DNA of 64,000 nt from Alphaproteobacteria bacterium MarineAlpha5_Bin9 (GTDB lineage Bacteria > Pseudomonadota > Alphaproteobacteria > HIMB59 > GCA-002718135), in assembly GCA_002937895.1 (NCBI GenBank), contig PTKV01000005.1, forward strand, positions 1 to 64,000, in the 5' to 3' direction. Position 1 is the stretch's first letter, and each line of letters starts with the position of its first letter. The notes under the pieces were generated by a model that made no database searches, was not told where the DNA came from, and worked only from the letters and a program-made list of their open reading frames with translations. A program made the position numbers and the translations under genes. This document shows positions 3,435 to 26,066 of this stretch, piece after piece.

Positions 3435-3914
3435 TTAAAAGGGTATATCGTCATCTAAATCATCACTCGATTTAGAATCCGGAGTATCATTAGAAATATC
3501 CGATAAATTATTATCATCAATATTCTGAACATCTTGTTTAGATTCTAGTTGGTTAGAATTAGATCTTGAGTCTAATAAAGTTAAATTACAATTATATCCC
3601 TGCAAAACAACTTCAGTAGTATATCTATCTTGTCCTGATTGATCTTGCCATTTTCTAGTAGAAATTTCTCCCTCAATATACAATTTTGAGCCTTTTTTGA
3701 CGTATTTTTCAACAATATCTACAAGTCCATCACCAAAAACAACAACATTGTGCCATGATGTTTTTTCCTTCTGTTCCTGAGTATTCTTATCCTTCCATCT
3801 TTTAGAAGTTGCAATAGAAAAAGCTGCCAATTTATTACCATTTTGAGTAGATCTAATGTCAGGATCTTTTCCAACATTTCCTAAAAGAATTGCTTTGTTA
3901 ACACTACCAACCAT
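3435..3914 (-). CDS. ssb: Single-stranded DNA-binding protein
   Basis: Coats single-stranded DNA during replication and repair and recruits partner proteins through its acidic tail. The 159-residue protein has an N-terminal OB fold (MVGSVNKAILLGNVGKDP, then a KTSWHNVVVFG strand), a low-complexity Asn/Ser/Asp-rich linker from about residue 115, and the diagnostic C-terminal DDDIPF tip. It is divergent from uvrA across 54 bp, the classic ssb-uvrA arrangement. No LexA-like box was recognised in that spacer. Confidence 0.97.
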   Translation of the reverse strand: MVGSVNKAILLGNVGKDPDIRSTQNGNKLAAFSIATSKRWKDKNTQEQKEKTSWHNVVVFGDGLVDIVEKYVKKGSKLYIEGEISTRKWQDQSGQDRYTTEVVLQGYNCNLTLLDSRSNSNQLESKQDVQNIDDNNLSDISNDTPDSKSSDDLDDDIPF

Positions 3915-3968
3915 AAAATATCAATATATATTATAATATAATAATTTAATTATATCATTAATTATTTC

Positions 3969-6794
3969 ATGAGTTTAGATAAAATTATAATAAAAGGTGC
4001 AAAACAGCATAACCTGAAGAATTTTAACTTAGAAATACCTAAAAACAAATTAGTTGTTATTACTGGAGTAAGCGGATCTGGGAAATCTACTCTTGCTTTT
4101 GATACTATATATTCTGAAGGACAAAGAAAATATGTAGAAAGTTTATCAGCATATGCAAGACAATTTTTGCAAATGATGAATAAACCAGATGTAGAAAGTA
4201 TAGAAGGTCTTTCACCAGCTATTTCAATAGAGCAAAAAACTACACAAAAAAATCCTAGAAGTACTGTTGGTACAGTTACCGAAATTTATGATTATCTTCG
4301 GGTTTTATTTGCTAGGGTTGGGGTCCCCTACTCTCCAACAACTGGATTACCTATAAGATCTCAATCTGTTAATGAAATTACTAATTTAATATTAAAAAAT
4401 AACAATAACAATAAAATTTATTTACTATCACCTATTGTTAGAAGTAGAAAAGGTGAATACAAAAAAGAAATAGATGATTTAAAAAAGAAGGGTTATCAAA
4501 GATTAAAAGTTAATAATAAGATATATGAAATTGATGAAGTTCCAAAATTAAAAAGAAATTTTAAACATAATATAGATGTTTTAGTTGATAGATTAATAAT
4601 TAAAAAAAATATAAATCAAAGAATATCTGAAAGTATTGAAACATGCTTGTCTTTATCTAATGGTTTATTATATGTAGAAAATCTTGATAATAACAAAATT
4701 GATATTTATTCTTCTAAATTTGCATGCCCAGTATCAAATTTTACAATTGAAGAAATAGAACCAAGATTATTTAGTTTTAATGCACCACAGGGAGCCTGCA
4801 AAGAATGTGATGGATTGGGGTTAGAAAAATTTTTTGATCCTAATAAAATTATTCCAGATGACTCTAGATCAATTATTGAAGGTGCTATTAGACCATGGGA
4901 AACAAAAGTTTTTGGATATCAAAGAAACATGTTTATTGATACAATATCAAAAATTCTTAATAAGAATAAAATTAACAAAAATAAATCTTGGAAAGAAATA
5001 CCTGAAAAAATTAAACATATAATTCTATATGGGGATGAAAATTTTGATGGAATAATAAGTTATATTGATAAAAAATATAACAAAACTGAAAGATTTTGGG
5101 TTCAATATGAACTTGAAAAATATCTATCAGAGAGAAATTGTGAATTATGTAAAGGATATAGACTAAATGAGAAAGCTCTTTCAGTCAAAATAGATAATAT
5201 ACATATAAGCCAATTAACTAAAAAACCAATTAATGAATGTCTAATGTGGTTTAACAAACTTGATAATAAACTAAACCATAATGAAAAAATAATAGCTAAG
5301 GGAATTGTAAAAGAAATCAAAGATAGATTAATTTTTTTAAATAAAGTGGGTCTTGAATATTTAACTTTATCTAGAGCTAGTAAGTCACTTTCAGGAGGTG
5401 AGTCGCAAAGAATAAGATTGGCTAGTCAAATTGGTTCAAAATTAACTGGAGTATGTTACTGCTTAGATGAACCTAGTATTGGATTACATCAAAGAGATAA
5501 TCAAAAGTTAATAGAGACACTAATAAAACTAAGAGATTTAGGAAATACTGTTATAATAGTAGAACATGATGCAGACACTATTGAAGCTGCCGATTATATT
5601 ATTGATATAGGTCCAAAAGCTGGAATACATGGAGGGGAAATAATTTTTAATGGTAATTATCGTGAACTTTTAAAAAATAAAAAAAGCATAACTGCACAAT
5701 ATTTAAACAATAGTAAAAAAATAGAGGTTCCTAAAGAAAGAAAAAGTATAGATAAGAAAAAATTGTTAAATCTATATAAAGTAAATACAAATAATTTAAA
5801 AAATTTAGATATAAATATTCCACTAGGTTTATTTTGCTGTATTACAGGTGTTTCAGGATCAGGAAAAAGTTCATTAATAATCGATACTTTATATGAACGT
5901 CTTAATAATTTTTATAATAATTCACTTATAAAGAATGAAAAAAACTTTAATATAAAAGGAACAAAACATATTGATAAAGTAATTGATATAAATCAATCTC
6001 CAATAGGAAGAACTCCTAGATCTAATCCAGCCACTTATACTGGTTGTTTTACGCCTATAAGAGATTGGTATGCTAGCTTAAATGAATCTAATATTAGAGG
6101 TTATAAACCAGGAAGATTTTCTTTTAACGTTCCATCTAATAAAAAAGGAGGTAGATGTGAAAGTTGTGAGGGTGATGGAGTAAAAAAAATAGAAATGCAT
6201 TTTTTAGCAGATGTTTTTGTAAAATGTGATGTCTGTAATGGAAAAAGATATAATAAAGAAACATTAGAAGTTAAATATAATAATAAATCTATTGCAGATG
6301 TTTTAGATATGACTGTTAAAGAAGGATATAATTTTTTTGAAAAAATACCTTCTATAAAAATGAAATTGCAAACATTAATGGATGTTGGATTAGATTATAT
6401 AAAAATTGGTCAATCAGCAACCACACTTTCAGGAGGAGAAGCTCAAAGAATAAAATTATCAAAAGAATTATCAAAAAAATCTACGGGAAAAACTCTATAT
6501 ATTTTGGATGAACCAACTACTGGTCTTCATTTTGATGATATAAAAAAATTGTTAAATATTCTTCATACTTTAGTTAAAGATGGTAATACTGTTGTAGTAA
6601 TTGAACATAATTTAGACGTTATTAAAACAGCTGATCACATTATAGATCTTGGAATTGAGGGTGGAGATAAAGGAGGAAAAATAATATTTGAAGGAACACC
6701 AGAAAATATTGTAAAAGATAATAATAGTTATACTGGTATTTATTTAAAAAAAATATTACAAACAATGAAAAGAGGTAAAAATGATAAAACTTGA
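3969..6794 (+). CDS. uvrA: Excinuclease ABC subunit A
   Basis: Damage-recognition ATPase of nucleotide excision repair. The 941-residue length is normal. Two ABC modules are visible: Walker A GVSGSGKSTLAF near residue 33 and GVSGSGKSSLI in the second half, with signatures LSGGESQRI and LSGGEAQRI. The C-terminal zinc finger is complete (CESC ... CDVC). The first finger reads CPVS ... CKEC, so the second Cys is Ser, a form I recall from other alphaproteobacterial UvrA proteins. The 3' end overlaps sodB by 14 nt, implying co-transcription. Confidence 0.98.
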   Translation: MSLDKIIIKGAKQHNLKNFNLEIPKNKLVVITGVSGSGKSTLAFDTIYSEGQRKYVESLSAYARQFLQMMNKPDVESIEGLSPAISIEQKTTQKNPRSTVGTVTEIYDYLRVLFARVGVPYSPTTGLPIRSQSVNEITNLILKNNNNNKIYLLSPIVRSRKGEYKKEIDDLKKKGYQRLKVNNKIYEIDEVPKLKRNFKHNIDVLVDRLIIKKNINQRISESIETCLSLSNGLLYVENLDNNKIDIYSSKFACPVSNFTIEEIEPRLFSFNAPQGACKECDGLGLEKFFDPNKIIPDDSRSIIEGAIRPWETKVFGYQRNMFIDTISKILNKNKINKNKSWKEIPEKIKHIILYGDENFDGIISYIDKKYNKTERFWVQYELEKYLSERNCELCKGYRLNEKALSVKIDNIHISQLTKKPINECLMWFNKLDNKLNHNEKIIAKGIVKEIKDRLIFLNKVGLEYLTLSRASKSLSGGESQRIRLASQIGSKLTGVCYCLDEPSIGLHQRDNQKLIETLIKLRDLGNTVIIVEHDADTIEAADYIIDIGPKAGIHGGEIIFNGNYRELLKNKKSITAQYLNNSKKIEVPKERKSIDKKKLLNLYKVNTNNLKNLDINIPLGLFCCITGVSGSGKSSLIIDTLYERLNNFYNNSLIKNEKNFNIKGTKHIDKVIDINQSPIGRTPRSNPATYTGCFTPIRDWYASLNESNIRGYKPGRFSFNVPSNKKGGRCESCEGDGVKKIEMHFLADVFVKCDVCNGKRYNKETLEVKYNNKSIADVLDMTVKEGYNFFEKIPSIKMKLQTLMDVGLDYIKIGQSATTLSGGEAQRIKLSKELSKKSTGKTLYILDEPTTGLHFDDIKKLLNILHTLVKDGNTVVVIEHNLDVIKTADHIIDLGIEGGDKGGKIIFEGTPENIVKDNNSYTGIYLKKILQTMKRGKNDKT

Positions 6795-24034: not shown

Positions 24035-24906
24035 TTAATGAATCCTTTAAAAGGAAAATTTGCTGGTCTTTGTAGCCAATTAAAACTAGGATAAGTATAT
24101 TCTCCGTTAATTACATGCATAGTATATGCATGTCTAGATTTAAGGCTTTTATTATGAGTAGAATAATGTGGCAATCTTCCATGGAGTAATATTAGTGTTC
24201 CTTTATCAACTTCTAATGGGGTAGTTAATTCTTTAAAAGGAGTTTTATCTATAGTCTCCATTTCTAATATATTATTCTTTCTTTTAAATAATTTTCTTAA
24301 TGGCTCCTTATGCCCCCCTCTATCTGCCCACATACATCCATTTTCAATATTTGCATCTTCTATAGCAATCCAAAAACCAACTACAGAGTCTGGAATAGTA
24401 TATAAGAATGTAGAGTCTTGATGACAAATGACTTCTCCTCCAATCCTTGGCTGCTTAAAAATATACATTGACTGAACTAACAAAGGATTATTAATCTTAA
24501 TGCCTTTAGCAATATCATCTAATTCTTTTTTATGAGAAAAATTAATAAATATTGGATCTAAATCATGCATTGCATGACCAATTTTATTTATCAAAAATTC
24601 AATATCATTAGTTAGCTCACCATTTTCTTTAAAGGAATTTTCTTCAAAAAAGAATCTTATTTTATCTCCTGATTCTAAAAAATAATCGTCTTTTACTTTA
24701 TTTTGTTTATTTGTATTAAAAACTGATTGATGATTCTGATAATCAAAGTTTTTTACAAGATAATTAGCTTGATTTTTTAAAGTTTCACATTCTAAATCTG
24801 AATAAAAATTATTTATAATTAAGAACCCATCATTTTCCCATGATCTTAGCATAGAATCATTAAAAGGTAAGTCAGACTTATTATAATGCAATATACCCAT
24901 TATCAA
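24031..24906 (-). CDS. Phytanoyl-CoA dioxygenase (PhyH) family protein
   Basis: 291-residue Fe(II)/2-oxoglutarate oxygenase. The 2-His-1-carboxylate triad is visible: HQD in VICHQDSTFLY and the distal His in RLPHYSTHN, with Arg in SRHAYTMHV to bind 2-oxoglutarate. The opening SWENDGFLIINNFY is typical. The substrate is unknown; eukaryotic relatives act on phytanoyl-CoA but bacterial homologues are varied. It overlaps both neighbours by 4 nt (ATGA), so it is part of a three-gene leftward unit with the nucleoside hydrolase. Confidence 0.88.
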   Translation of the reverse strand: MIMGILHYNKSDLPFNDSMLRSWENDGFLIINNFYSDLECETLKNQANYLVKNFDYQNHQSVFNTNKQNKVKDDYFLESGDKIRFFFEENSFKENGELTNDIEFLINKIGHAMHDLDPIFINFSHKKELDDIAKGIKINNPLLVQSMYIFKQPRIGGEVICHQDSTFLYTIPDSVVGFWIAIEDANIENGCMWADRGGHKEPLRKLFKRKNNILEMETIDKTPFKELTTPLEVDKGTLILLHGRLPHYSTHNKSLKSRHAYTMHVINGEYTYPSFNWLQRPANFPFKGFIN

Positions 24907-25124
24907 ATACCTATAAATTTTGTAATAAAAGGAAGGAGCATTTTTAATATATTAAAAATTTGAGGTAAAATAAATTTACCTGATGTAGCTAAAAAAAATA
25001 ATAAACCGAGTATGATAATGAGAATAATTATATTTCTATATAATTTAGCATTTTTTTTATTTCTAGATCTTAAAATAAAAAAAATAATTAAGAGAATAAA
25101 TAGAACTATTAATAATCTAATCAT
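24903..25124 (-). CDS. Small membrane protein resembling the N terminus of alphaproteobacterial membrane DnaJ
   Basis: 73 residues with a first transmembrane helix (about 2-18), a short basic linker (RSRNKKNAKLYRN) and a second hydrophobic region (about 30-46), ending FITKFIGI. The layout matches the membrane-anchor portion of TIM14/DjlA-like DnaJ proteins of alphaproteobacteria, but no J domain (HPD) follows: a stop comes first and the next gene begins 4 nt inside it. It could be a reduced homologue or an unrelated small protein. The assignment is an inference from layout only. Confidence 0.6.
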   Translation of the reverse strand: MIRLLIVLFILLIIFFILRSRNKKNAKLYRNIIILIIILGLLFFLATSGKFILPQIFNILKMLLPFITKFIGI

Positions 25125-25494
25125 AAATTTATATTTATATTAGTAATATAGTTAAAATATAAGGATATATAAAATAAGAATTAAATATAATTATAATATG
25201 AAATTAAATGTTAGTTTTTAAGGAAAAAAACATGAATATTTAAAAAAAATGCATTTTTTCGCTATTTCTCTGATTTTTTTTCATTTTAATTTAATAACTT
25301 TTTATTAAGAAATATGAGAAAAATAATAACAAATTTCCTTAAAATACAAAGGTTTATTTATAAAAAGCTCAATTATTTCGATTCCGATAAATAAATAGCT
25401 ATAAAATAAAAATAATTGTCTATTATTTCAATAACTTAGCAATATATATCATTTTTTAATTACTAAATCCTTTTCTAGAATATAGATATCTGGC

Positions 25495-25515
25495 CACTTA
25501 AGGTGAGCTTAAGTG
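25495..25515 (+). promoter_or_regulatory. Perfect 8-bp inverted repeat in the leader of the tandem small genes
   Basis: CACTTAAG and CTTAAGTG flank a 5-nt spacer GTGAG, ending 27 nt before the first ATG. It could be a mRNA leader hairpin that stabilises the transcript or modulates initiation, or a dimeric-protein operator. No U-tract follows, so it is not a terminator. Confidence 0.6.
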
Positions 25516-25532
25516 ACGTGATGAATTAAATT

Positions 25533-25537
25533 AGGAG
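25533..25537 (+). promoter_or_regulatory. Shine-Dalgarno site AGGAG of the first small gene
   Basis: AGGAG sits 5 nt before the ATG at 25543, near-ideal spacing and clearly stronger than the ribosome-binding sites of most neighbours. It fixes the start. Confidence 0.75.
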
Positions 25538-25542
25538 AAAAT

Positions 25543-25770
25543 ATGTGGGTTGACACTATTAAAGGCTGGCTAAAGGACATAGCAGAAGTTGGTCTTCTGA
25601 TTATTGCTGCAGCTGTTGTTCTCGAAGTTATTTTCGGATCACCTGTTCCTTTTATAGGATATGGGATTACTGACAACATCACGGCGCTAACGCGTGAATT
25701 GGGCAGTCAAGGTATCGTTGGTATAATAGCTATAGGTATCATTGTTTGGCTTTATTTACGCAGATCTTAA
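25543..25770 (+). CDS. Small two-helix membrane protein, first tandem paralogue
   Basis: 75 residues, family not recognised. An amphipathic N terminus (MWVDTIKGWLKDIAE) leads to a hydrophobic segment at about 16-31, a FGSPVPFIG turn, a polar helix with DNITAL, a second hydrophobic segment at about 57-72 and a basic end (RRS). There is no export signal or catalytic motif. GC is about 41% by hand count (93 of 228), far above the flanking genes, with ACG, GCG and CGT codons rare around it. About 30 positions are identical to the next gene 16 nt downstream. High expression or foreign origin could explain the composition. Confidence 0.85.
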   Translation: MWVDTIKGWLKDIAEVGLLIIAAAVVLEVIFGSPVPFIGYGITDNITALTRELGSQGIVGIIAIGIIVWLYLRRS

Positions 25771-25771
25771 A

Positions 25772-25777
25772 AAGGAG
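25772..25777 (+). promoter_or_regulatory. Shine-Dalgarno site AAGGAG of the second small gene
   Basis: AAGGAG begins one base after the first gene's stop codon and lies 9 nt before the ATG at 25787 (12 before the adjacent second ATG), favouring the first. Confidence 0.7.
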
Positions 25778-25786
25778 TAATGCGAA

Positions 25787-26005
25787 ATGATGAATACTAT
25801 TCAAGATTTCATTAAAGGCGTTATGGGATTAGCTATGGCTGTTATCCCTTTAAGCGTTGTACTTGGCGTAATATTTGGTCCAGCTGTACCTTTCATCGGG
25901 TTTGATGTAATTGATAATATTTCTGCATTAGTATCAGATTTAGGTGGAAGTGGCCTAGTTGGAGTTATTACTGTTGGTATACTATGGGCTCTATTTAGAC
26001 GATAA
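25787..26005 (+). CDS. Small two-helix membrane protein, second tandem paralogue
   Basis: 72 residues, same plan as the upstream protein: amphipathic start (NTIQDFIKG), hydrophobic segment about 13-30, FGPAVPFIG turn, DNISAL helix, second hydrophobic segment about 57-70 and terminal RR. The shared core VIFGxxVPFIG, DNIxAL and LGxxGxVGxI suggests a duplicated pair that may assemble together. GC is about 37% by hand count. Two adjacent ATGs are possible starts. An intrinsic terminator follows 28 bp later. Confidence 0.85.
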   Translation: MMNTIQDFIKGVMGLAMAVIPLSVVLGVIFGPAVPFIGFDVIDNISALVSDLGGSGLVGVITVGILWALFRR

Positions 26006-26033: not shown

Positions 26034-26066
26034 AAGCCCTCTTTTTAAACAGAGGGCTTTTTTTTT
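26034..26066 (+). terminator. Rho-independent terminator of the small-gene operon
   Basis: An 8-bp stem (AAGCCCTC / GAGGGCTT) with a 10-nt loop is followed by nine T residues (26058-26066). It is the clearest intrinsic terminator in the window, and its T-tract ends at the base before the mazG ATG. Confidence 0.92.

Follow-up and report, generated by a model that had tools for sequence, protein, structure and literature searches.

A tandem pair of small membrane proteins with a predicted structured leader represents an unnamed alphaproteobacterial family

Two adjacent genes, here called A and B, in a 64,000-nucleotide stretch of contig PTKV01000005.1 from the Alphaproteobacteria bacterium MarineAlpha5_Bin9 (referred to below as the window) encode tandem paralogues that define a widespread family of alphaproteobacterial membrane proteins, unnamed in any library searched. 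Judging from the sequence, its members appear to be inner-membrane proteins of about 75 residues that are confined to the Alphaproteobacteria. The interpretation that we tentatively favour overall is that of a non-essential, oligomerising helical-hairpin protein of the inner membrane that is produced from a structured transcript. Hetero-pairs have arisen repeatedly within the family, and the seemingly foreign GC signal of the two genes is explained by composition and RNA-level selection, not by gene transfer. The initial annotation had proposed the locus as a candidate for an undescribed system; it belongs to a genuine, uncharacterised family and provides no evidence for a multi-part system that is yet to be described.

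Both open reading frames lie at the positions initially assigned to them (Table 1), each is preceded by the Shine-Dalgarno sequence AGGAG, and an intrinsic terminator closes the two-gene unit. The estimated 30 or so identical positions between the two products correspond to 32 of 72 residues (44%, E=6e-21). They had been described as two-helix proteins; three helical segments (about residues 2-31, 40-53 and 56-72) fit better, because an amphipathic stretch lies between the two transmembrane helices in low-confidence models. These AlphaFold models, which are based on shallow alignments and have pLDDT values of 61.5 and 67.5, place helices at about residues 2-31, 40-53 and 55-74. Together with the charge pattern of 66 family members, whose C-termini carry a mean charge of +1.9 and whose loops carry one of -1.4, they suggest that the proteins probably comprise a cytoplasmic amphipathic helix, a first transmembrane helix (TM1), a periplasmic amphipathic helix with the pattern GxDxVxNLxxLxxxLG, a Gly-rich second transmembrane helix (TM2) and a basic cytoplasmic end. 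Another 73-residue two-helix membrane protein is encoded at 24903-25124 on the reverse strand, adjoining a PhyH-family gene; it has no Pfam match, and the relatives examined conserve it together with its neighbours.

Table 1. Features of the A-B locus (positions within the window).
Feature	Position	Strand	Description and basis
Near-invariant CGATTC	25379-25384	+	Upstream alignment
IHF-like site TTTCAATAACTTA	25426-25438	+	One mismatch to WATCAANNNNTTR; predicted
Candidate -10 element TATAGA	25481-25486	+	Conserved column block; TATAAT in most relatives
5' leader hairpin CACTTAAG-gtgag-CTTAAGTG	25495-25515	+	Just 3' of the probable transcription start
Leader motif ACGTGATRAA	25516-25525	+	Near-invariant columns, single copy
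5' strand of predicted helix, CGTGATG	25517-25523	+	Core of the leader motif
Ribosome-binding site of A	25533-25537	+	AGGAG, 5 nt 5' of ATG; by sequence
Gene A	25543-25770	+	75-aa membrane protein; ORF
Layout of the gene A protein (N to C)			Amphipathic N-terminal helix, TM1, amphipathic helix, TM2, basic C-terminus; family alignment A1
3' strand of predicted helix, CATCACG	25677-25683	+	Codons of A for Asn-Ile-Thr
Ribosome-binding site of B	25773-25777	+	AGGAG; by sequence
Gene B	25787-26005	+	72-aa paralogue of A, 44% identical; ORF, alignment A1
Rho-independent terminator 3' of B	26034-26066	+	9 pairs, 5 GC

The family profile, derived from alignment A1, matches both proteins over their full length, with 107 bits for A and 95 bits for B, both of which are themselves rows of this alignment. 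Members range from 71 to 86 residues in length and share invariant Gly56 and Gly59 as well as near-invariant Asn44, Leu52 and Gly53 (B numbering), with A and B conforming at all of these columns. A fixed polar position in TM1 is occupied by Glu in A, Gly in B and usually Gln in other lineages. The genes are under purifying selection (pN/pS about 0.2-0.3), and the A homologues of relatives are 62-78% identical to A. That no family had initially been recognised agrees with our profile searches of curated libraries, none of which produced a match above its cut-off. Neither protein had a passing match in Pfam, NCBIfam, PHROG, the PDB or a fold search; in the latter, the models retrieved no PDB entry and a single viral match that is meaningless. 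A PDB sequence match to EhpF (E=0.016) was taken as chance, since it aligned membrane helices to a soluble enzyme. A literature search likewise returned nothing on this family, on its peptides or on a pair of this kind.

The two genes are the sole family copies in their own genome. In the window's own family, which probably corresponds to the AEGEAN-169/HIMB59-like group (compare PMC10308909), the pair is found in 22 of 110 genomes, nearly always as adjacent A-B genes and at a syntenic, fixed place in all six genera; the prospect that it might be absent from all related genomes, raised in the initial annotation, thus did not materialise. The named records that carry it come from marine Alphaproteobacteria, as single-cell genomes or MAGs, and include MarineAlpha5_Bin7. 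Three genomes of genus g3 that were read in detail (L167, L170 and L172) keep the flanking genes yet lack the pair. The mazG gene is also absent at that place in these three genomes, but L062 and L074 lack it next to the pair as well. A fixed locus across genera, combined with clean absence where the flanks are kept, indicates that the pair is old in its own family and dispensable. In the class at large, homologues occur in 31 of 288 and 42 of 386 other genomes (about 11%; two overlapping samples), and the phylum sample contained one weak partial match.

In a tree based on 78 columns, with many forks lacking resolution, A and B form supported sister clades among the alphaproteobacterial members, which dates their duplication to before the radiation of the window's family. 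Other tandem pairs (e.g. L036/L037 and L046/L051/L053/L055/L129) are placed elsewhere in the tree, and this scatter indicates more than one origin of tandem pairing. One genome of the window's own family carries a further tandem pair of A/B-type genes that is strongly diverged (L126, G104:C45, about 3571-4110; contig GC 29.7%). By sequence inspection, the neighbours of family genes in the class-wide loci examined are unrelated and differ between lineages, resembling MurA, GntR-type regulators, transporters, hydrolases and others, and the attempt to derive a function from them was therefore abandoned. A terminator follows 44 of 66 family genes as compared to 21 of 107 control ORFs (p=8e-10), which, together with the unrelated neighbours, implies that family genes are usually self-contained units.

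The initial annotation had missed the conserved leader of gene A, as well as its complementarity to the coding region. Upstream of it, most relatives have two IHF-like sites, 82-83 bp apart, which flank the CGATTC block; the distal one is degenerate in the window. Promoter-like matches were near background (8 versus 6.9 expected). The leader hairpin is kept in all relatives that were read, with a compensatory change (ATTTAAG/CTTAAAT) in L060 and L061, and is followed by the motif ACGTGATRAA. This motif occurs once in the genome; further matches appear only at three mismatches, the level of a reversed-pattern control. Rfam yielded no gathering-level match in the leader region, with permissive scans giving hits only far below the cut-offs, and assignment to a known RNA family was dropped. 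Across the class, a strong 5' hairpin is a modest trend (mean z -0.86 versus -0.20, p=8e-4). Two side observations concern other lineages. Within one family, the leader hairpins of L042 and of L044/L045 differ in sequence and, by eye, are alike in form (TTGTAAGTA/TACTTACAA versus GGTAAGTA/TACTTACC). In addition, L038, L039 and L041, all from one genus, share an invariant, single-copy 34-nt element in the 3'-UTR of the family gene (CACCCTCCCGAATTTGATCCCGACACGGTGAAGG), which holds a CCCTCCC sequence resembling an anti-ribosome-binding site, although pairing with the start site was not confidently predicted.

The core of the leader motif is complementary to a segment within gene A, and pairing with codons 43-46 is possible in each of the 20 relatives, which, owing to their shared ancestry, amount to far fewer than 20 independent observations. 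The long-range helix was present in 20 of 20 single-transcript folds, mostly with pair probabilities of more than 0.9 (about 0.6 in the weakest fold). It had first been spotted by eye, with the tests coming after: the leader together with A was more stable than synonymous shuffles in 20 of 20 genomes (mean z -2.87), 97.4% of cells in three helices could pair as opposed to 29-39% when slid, and, for each genome, no more than 2% of codon-usage resamplings reached complementarity of such strength, while the leader still paired with some distal site in 38% of codon-shuffled controls. The rare codons AAC ATC ACG at the 3' strand are kept across genera. Covariation is thin, with two pairs showing double changes that probably reflect few evolutionary events. 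The leader of L060-L062 reads CGTGATAA and the coding side TATTATC(GCG), which preserves pairing in the aligned register through a single GC-to-AU double change plus two G-U pairs; alternatively, 8 bp can form with a shift of one codon. A second proposed helix, between UCGAG beside the ribosome-binding site and CUCGA in codons 25-26, exists in most relatives and is lost in the window, so sequestration of the ribosome-binding site by this helix was given no weight. The mRNA effect is clear for A in the window's family and weaker for B and the class at large. It is conceivable, if somewhat doubtful, that these elements constitute a new bacterial cis-regulatory RNA, in which a hairpin precedes the invariant motif ACGUGAURAA, whose pairing with the coding region of a small membrane-protein gene some 160 nt further downstream is maintained through selection acting on rare codons; the gene would then encode a protein and at the same time belong to its own RNA switch.

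It is tempting to combine these features into a single model. A and B may each form a helical hairpin in the inner membrane, with their Gly-rich helices suggesting oligomerisation and the repeated tandem duplication suggesting hetero-oligomers in which a main subunit is joined by a variant one. Expressed from their own operon, they would likely act as a non-essential membrane-organising or accessory protein. In the fold predicted for the A transcript of this lineage, the leader pairs with codons 43-46 and encloses the start site in a domain that translation would have to open, and this fold, together with the conserved upstream region and its IHF-like sites, could set the timing and amount of protein.

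The main rival, which we consider unlikely, is that the proteins serve a larger inner-membrane complex, such as a respiratory enzyme, a transporter or a translocon, as small accessory subunits. Accessory subunits are usually of such a size, contain two transmembrane helices and are taxonomically restricted, all of which applies to A and B, and the polar residue found at a constant position of TM1 would also suit this role. However, the unrelated neighbours across the class point to no complex, and the family is carried by only about 11% of class genomes and is cleanly absent in close relatives of the window.

Less likely still is that the two proteins form pores or act like holins, or that they resemble type I toxins, with a structured mRNA restraining translation. 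Type I toxin mRNAs combine a small hydrophobic protein, tandem copies and long-distance pairing (reviewed in PMC8309996; for Helicobacter, see PMC6733600), and the A-B locus shares the small hydrophobic proteins and the tandem copies, with long-distance pairing in a structured transcript being predicted for it. Yet the pair has a long history of vertical inheritance at one locus under purifying selection, and its products have two transmembrane helices, family lengths of 71-86 residues and strong ribosome-binding sites. Moreover, the search for phage holins or phage-borne proteins produced no significant match in PHROG, phage records or IMG/VR, and no family copy was found in phages (50,697 records), IMG/VR viral contigs or plasmids, so a phage or plasmid origin was rejected.

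The GC content initially estimated at about 41% for A and 37% for B was measured as 41.3% and 37.0%, compared to a mean of 25.4% and a maximum of 34.9% among 57 ORFs of the window. Given the genome's own codon usage, as determined from the 64-kb window and one ribosomal-protein region, the A and B proteins would be expected to have gene GC contents of 33.4% and 34.6%, respectively. Amino-acid composition, which is rich in Gly, Ala and Val, hence explains the GC of B and about half of the excess in A. A codon-level excess is real in A only, where 23 of 75 third positions are G or C (10.8 +/- 2.4 expected, z about 5); in B, the 14 observed compare with 11.4 expected (p=0.19) and the codons fit the genome. 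The remainder of the excess in A fits selection on its mRNA. Since ribosomal-protein genes have almost no codon bias relative to background, with the codons of A resembling neither, codon adaptation cannot reveal the expression level of the pair; the strong ribosome-binding sites and class-wide terminators would make high expression plausible. The elevated GC3 of A is what would speak for the recently transferred cassette initially suggested. We consider this scenario very improbable and reject it given the fixed place in all six genera and the clean absence in one sub-lineage; moreover, A and B branch as clades inside the alphaproteobacterial tree, the phage, viral and plasmid records searched contain no copy, the genes are also of higher GC in all AT-rich relatives, and the GC of B follows from its amino-acid composition. 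An older gain in the ancestor of the window's family is possible, because the sister family lacks the pair (0 of 4 genomes).

Equally improbable, and largely refuted, is a VirB2/TrbC-like or integrating-element membrane protein: the best partial library matches of A, to TIGR03745 (E=8e-5, 22.3 bits), DUF2976 (16.6 bits) and TrbL, fall far below the curated cut-offs of 52.5, 28.2 and 25.9 bits, respectively, B matches none of the three, only 3 of 25 family members match TIGR03745 and 2 of 25 DUF2976 at E<=0.1, no conjugation gene was recognised by sequence among the nearest neighbours in the class-wide loci examined, and there are no plasmid copies.

Among known systems, the TIGR03745/PF11190 (DUF2976) proteins of integrating conjugative elements resemble A and B in length and in their two transmembrane helices, with a weak profile similarity to A, but differ in that A stays below the cut-off, B has no match and the pair lacks a mobile-element context. 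Type I toxin mRNAs of the Hok, AapA1 and ZorO kinds are similar to A in encoding a small hydrophobic membrane protein, in distant mRNA pairing (predicted in A) and in tandem copies, whereas A and B are longer, have two transmembrane helices and occupy a stable orthologous locus throughout the window's family. The closest parallel is with the unnamed conserved small membrane proteins of Alphaproteobacteria, of which the A/B family is one; what sets this branch apart from the others is its fixed hetero-pair and its conserved leader with a predicted fold.
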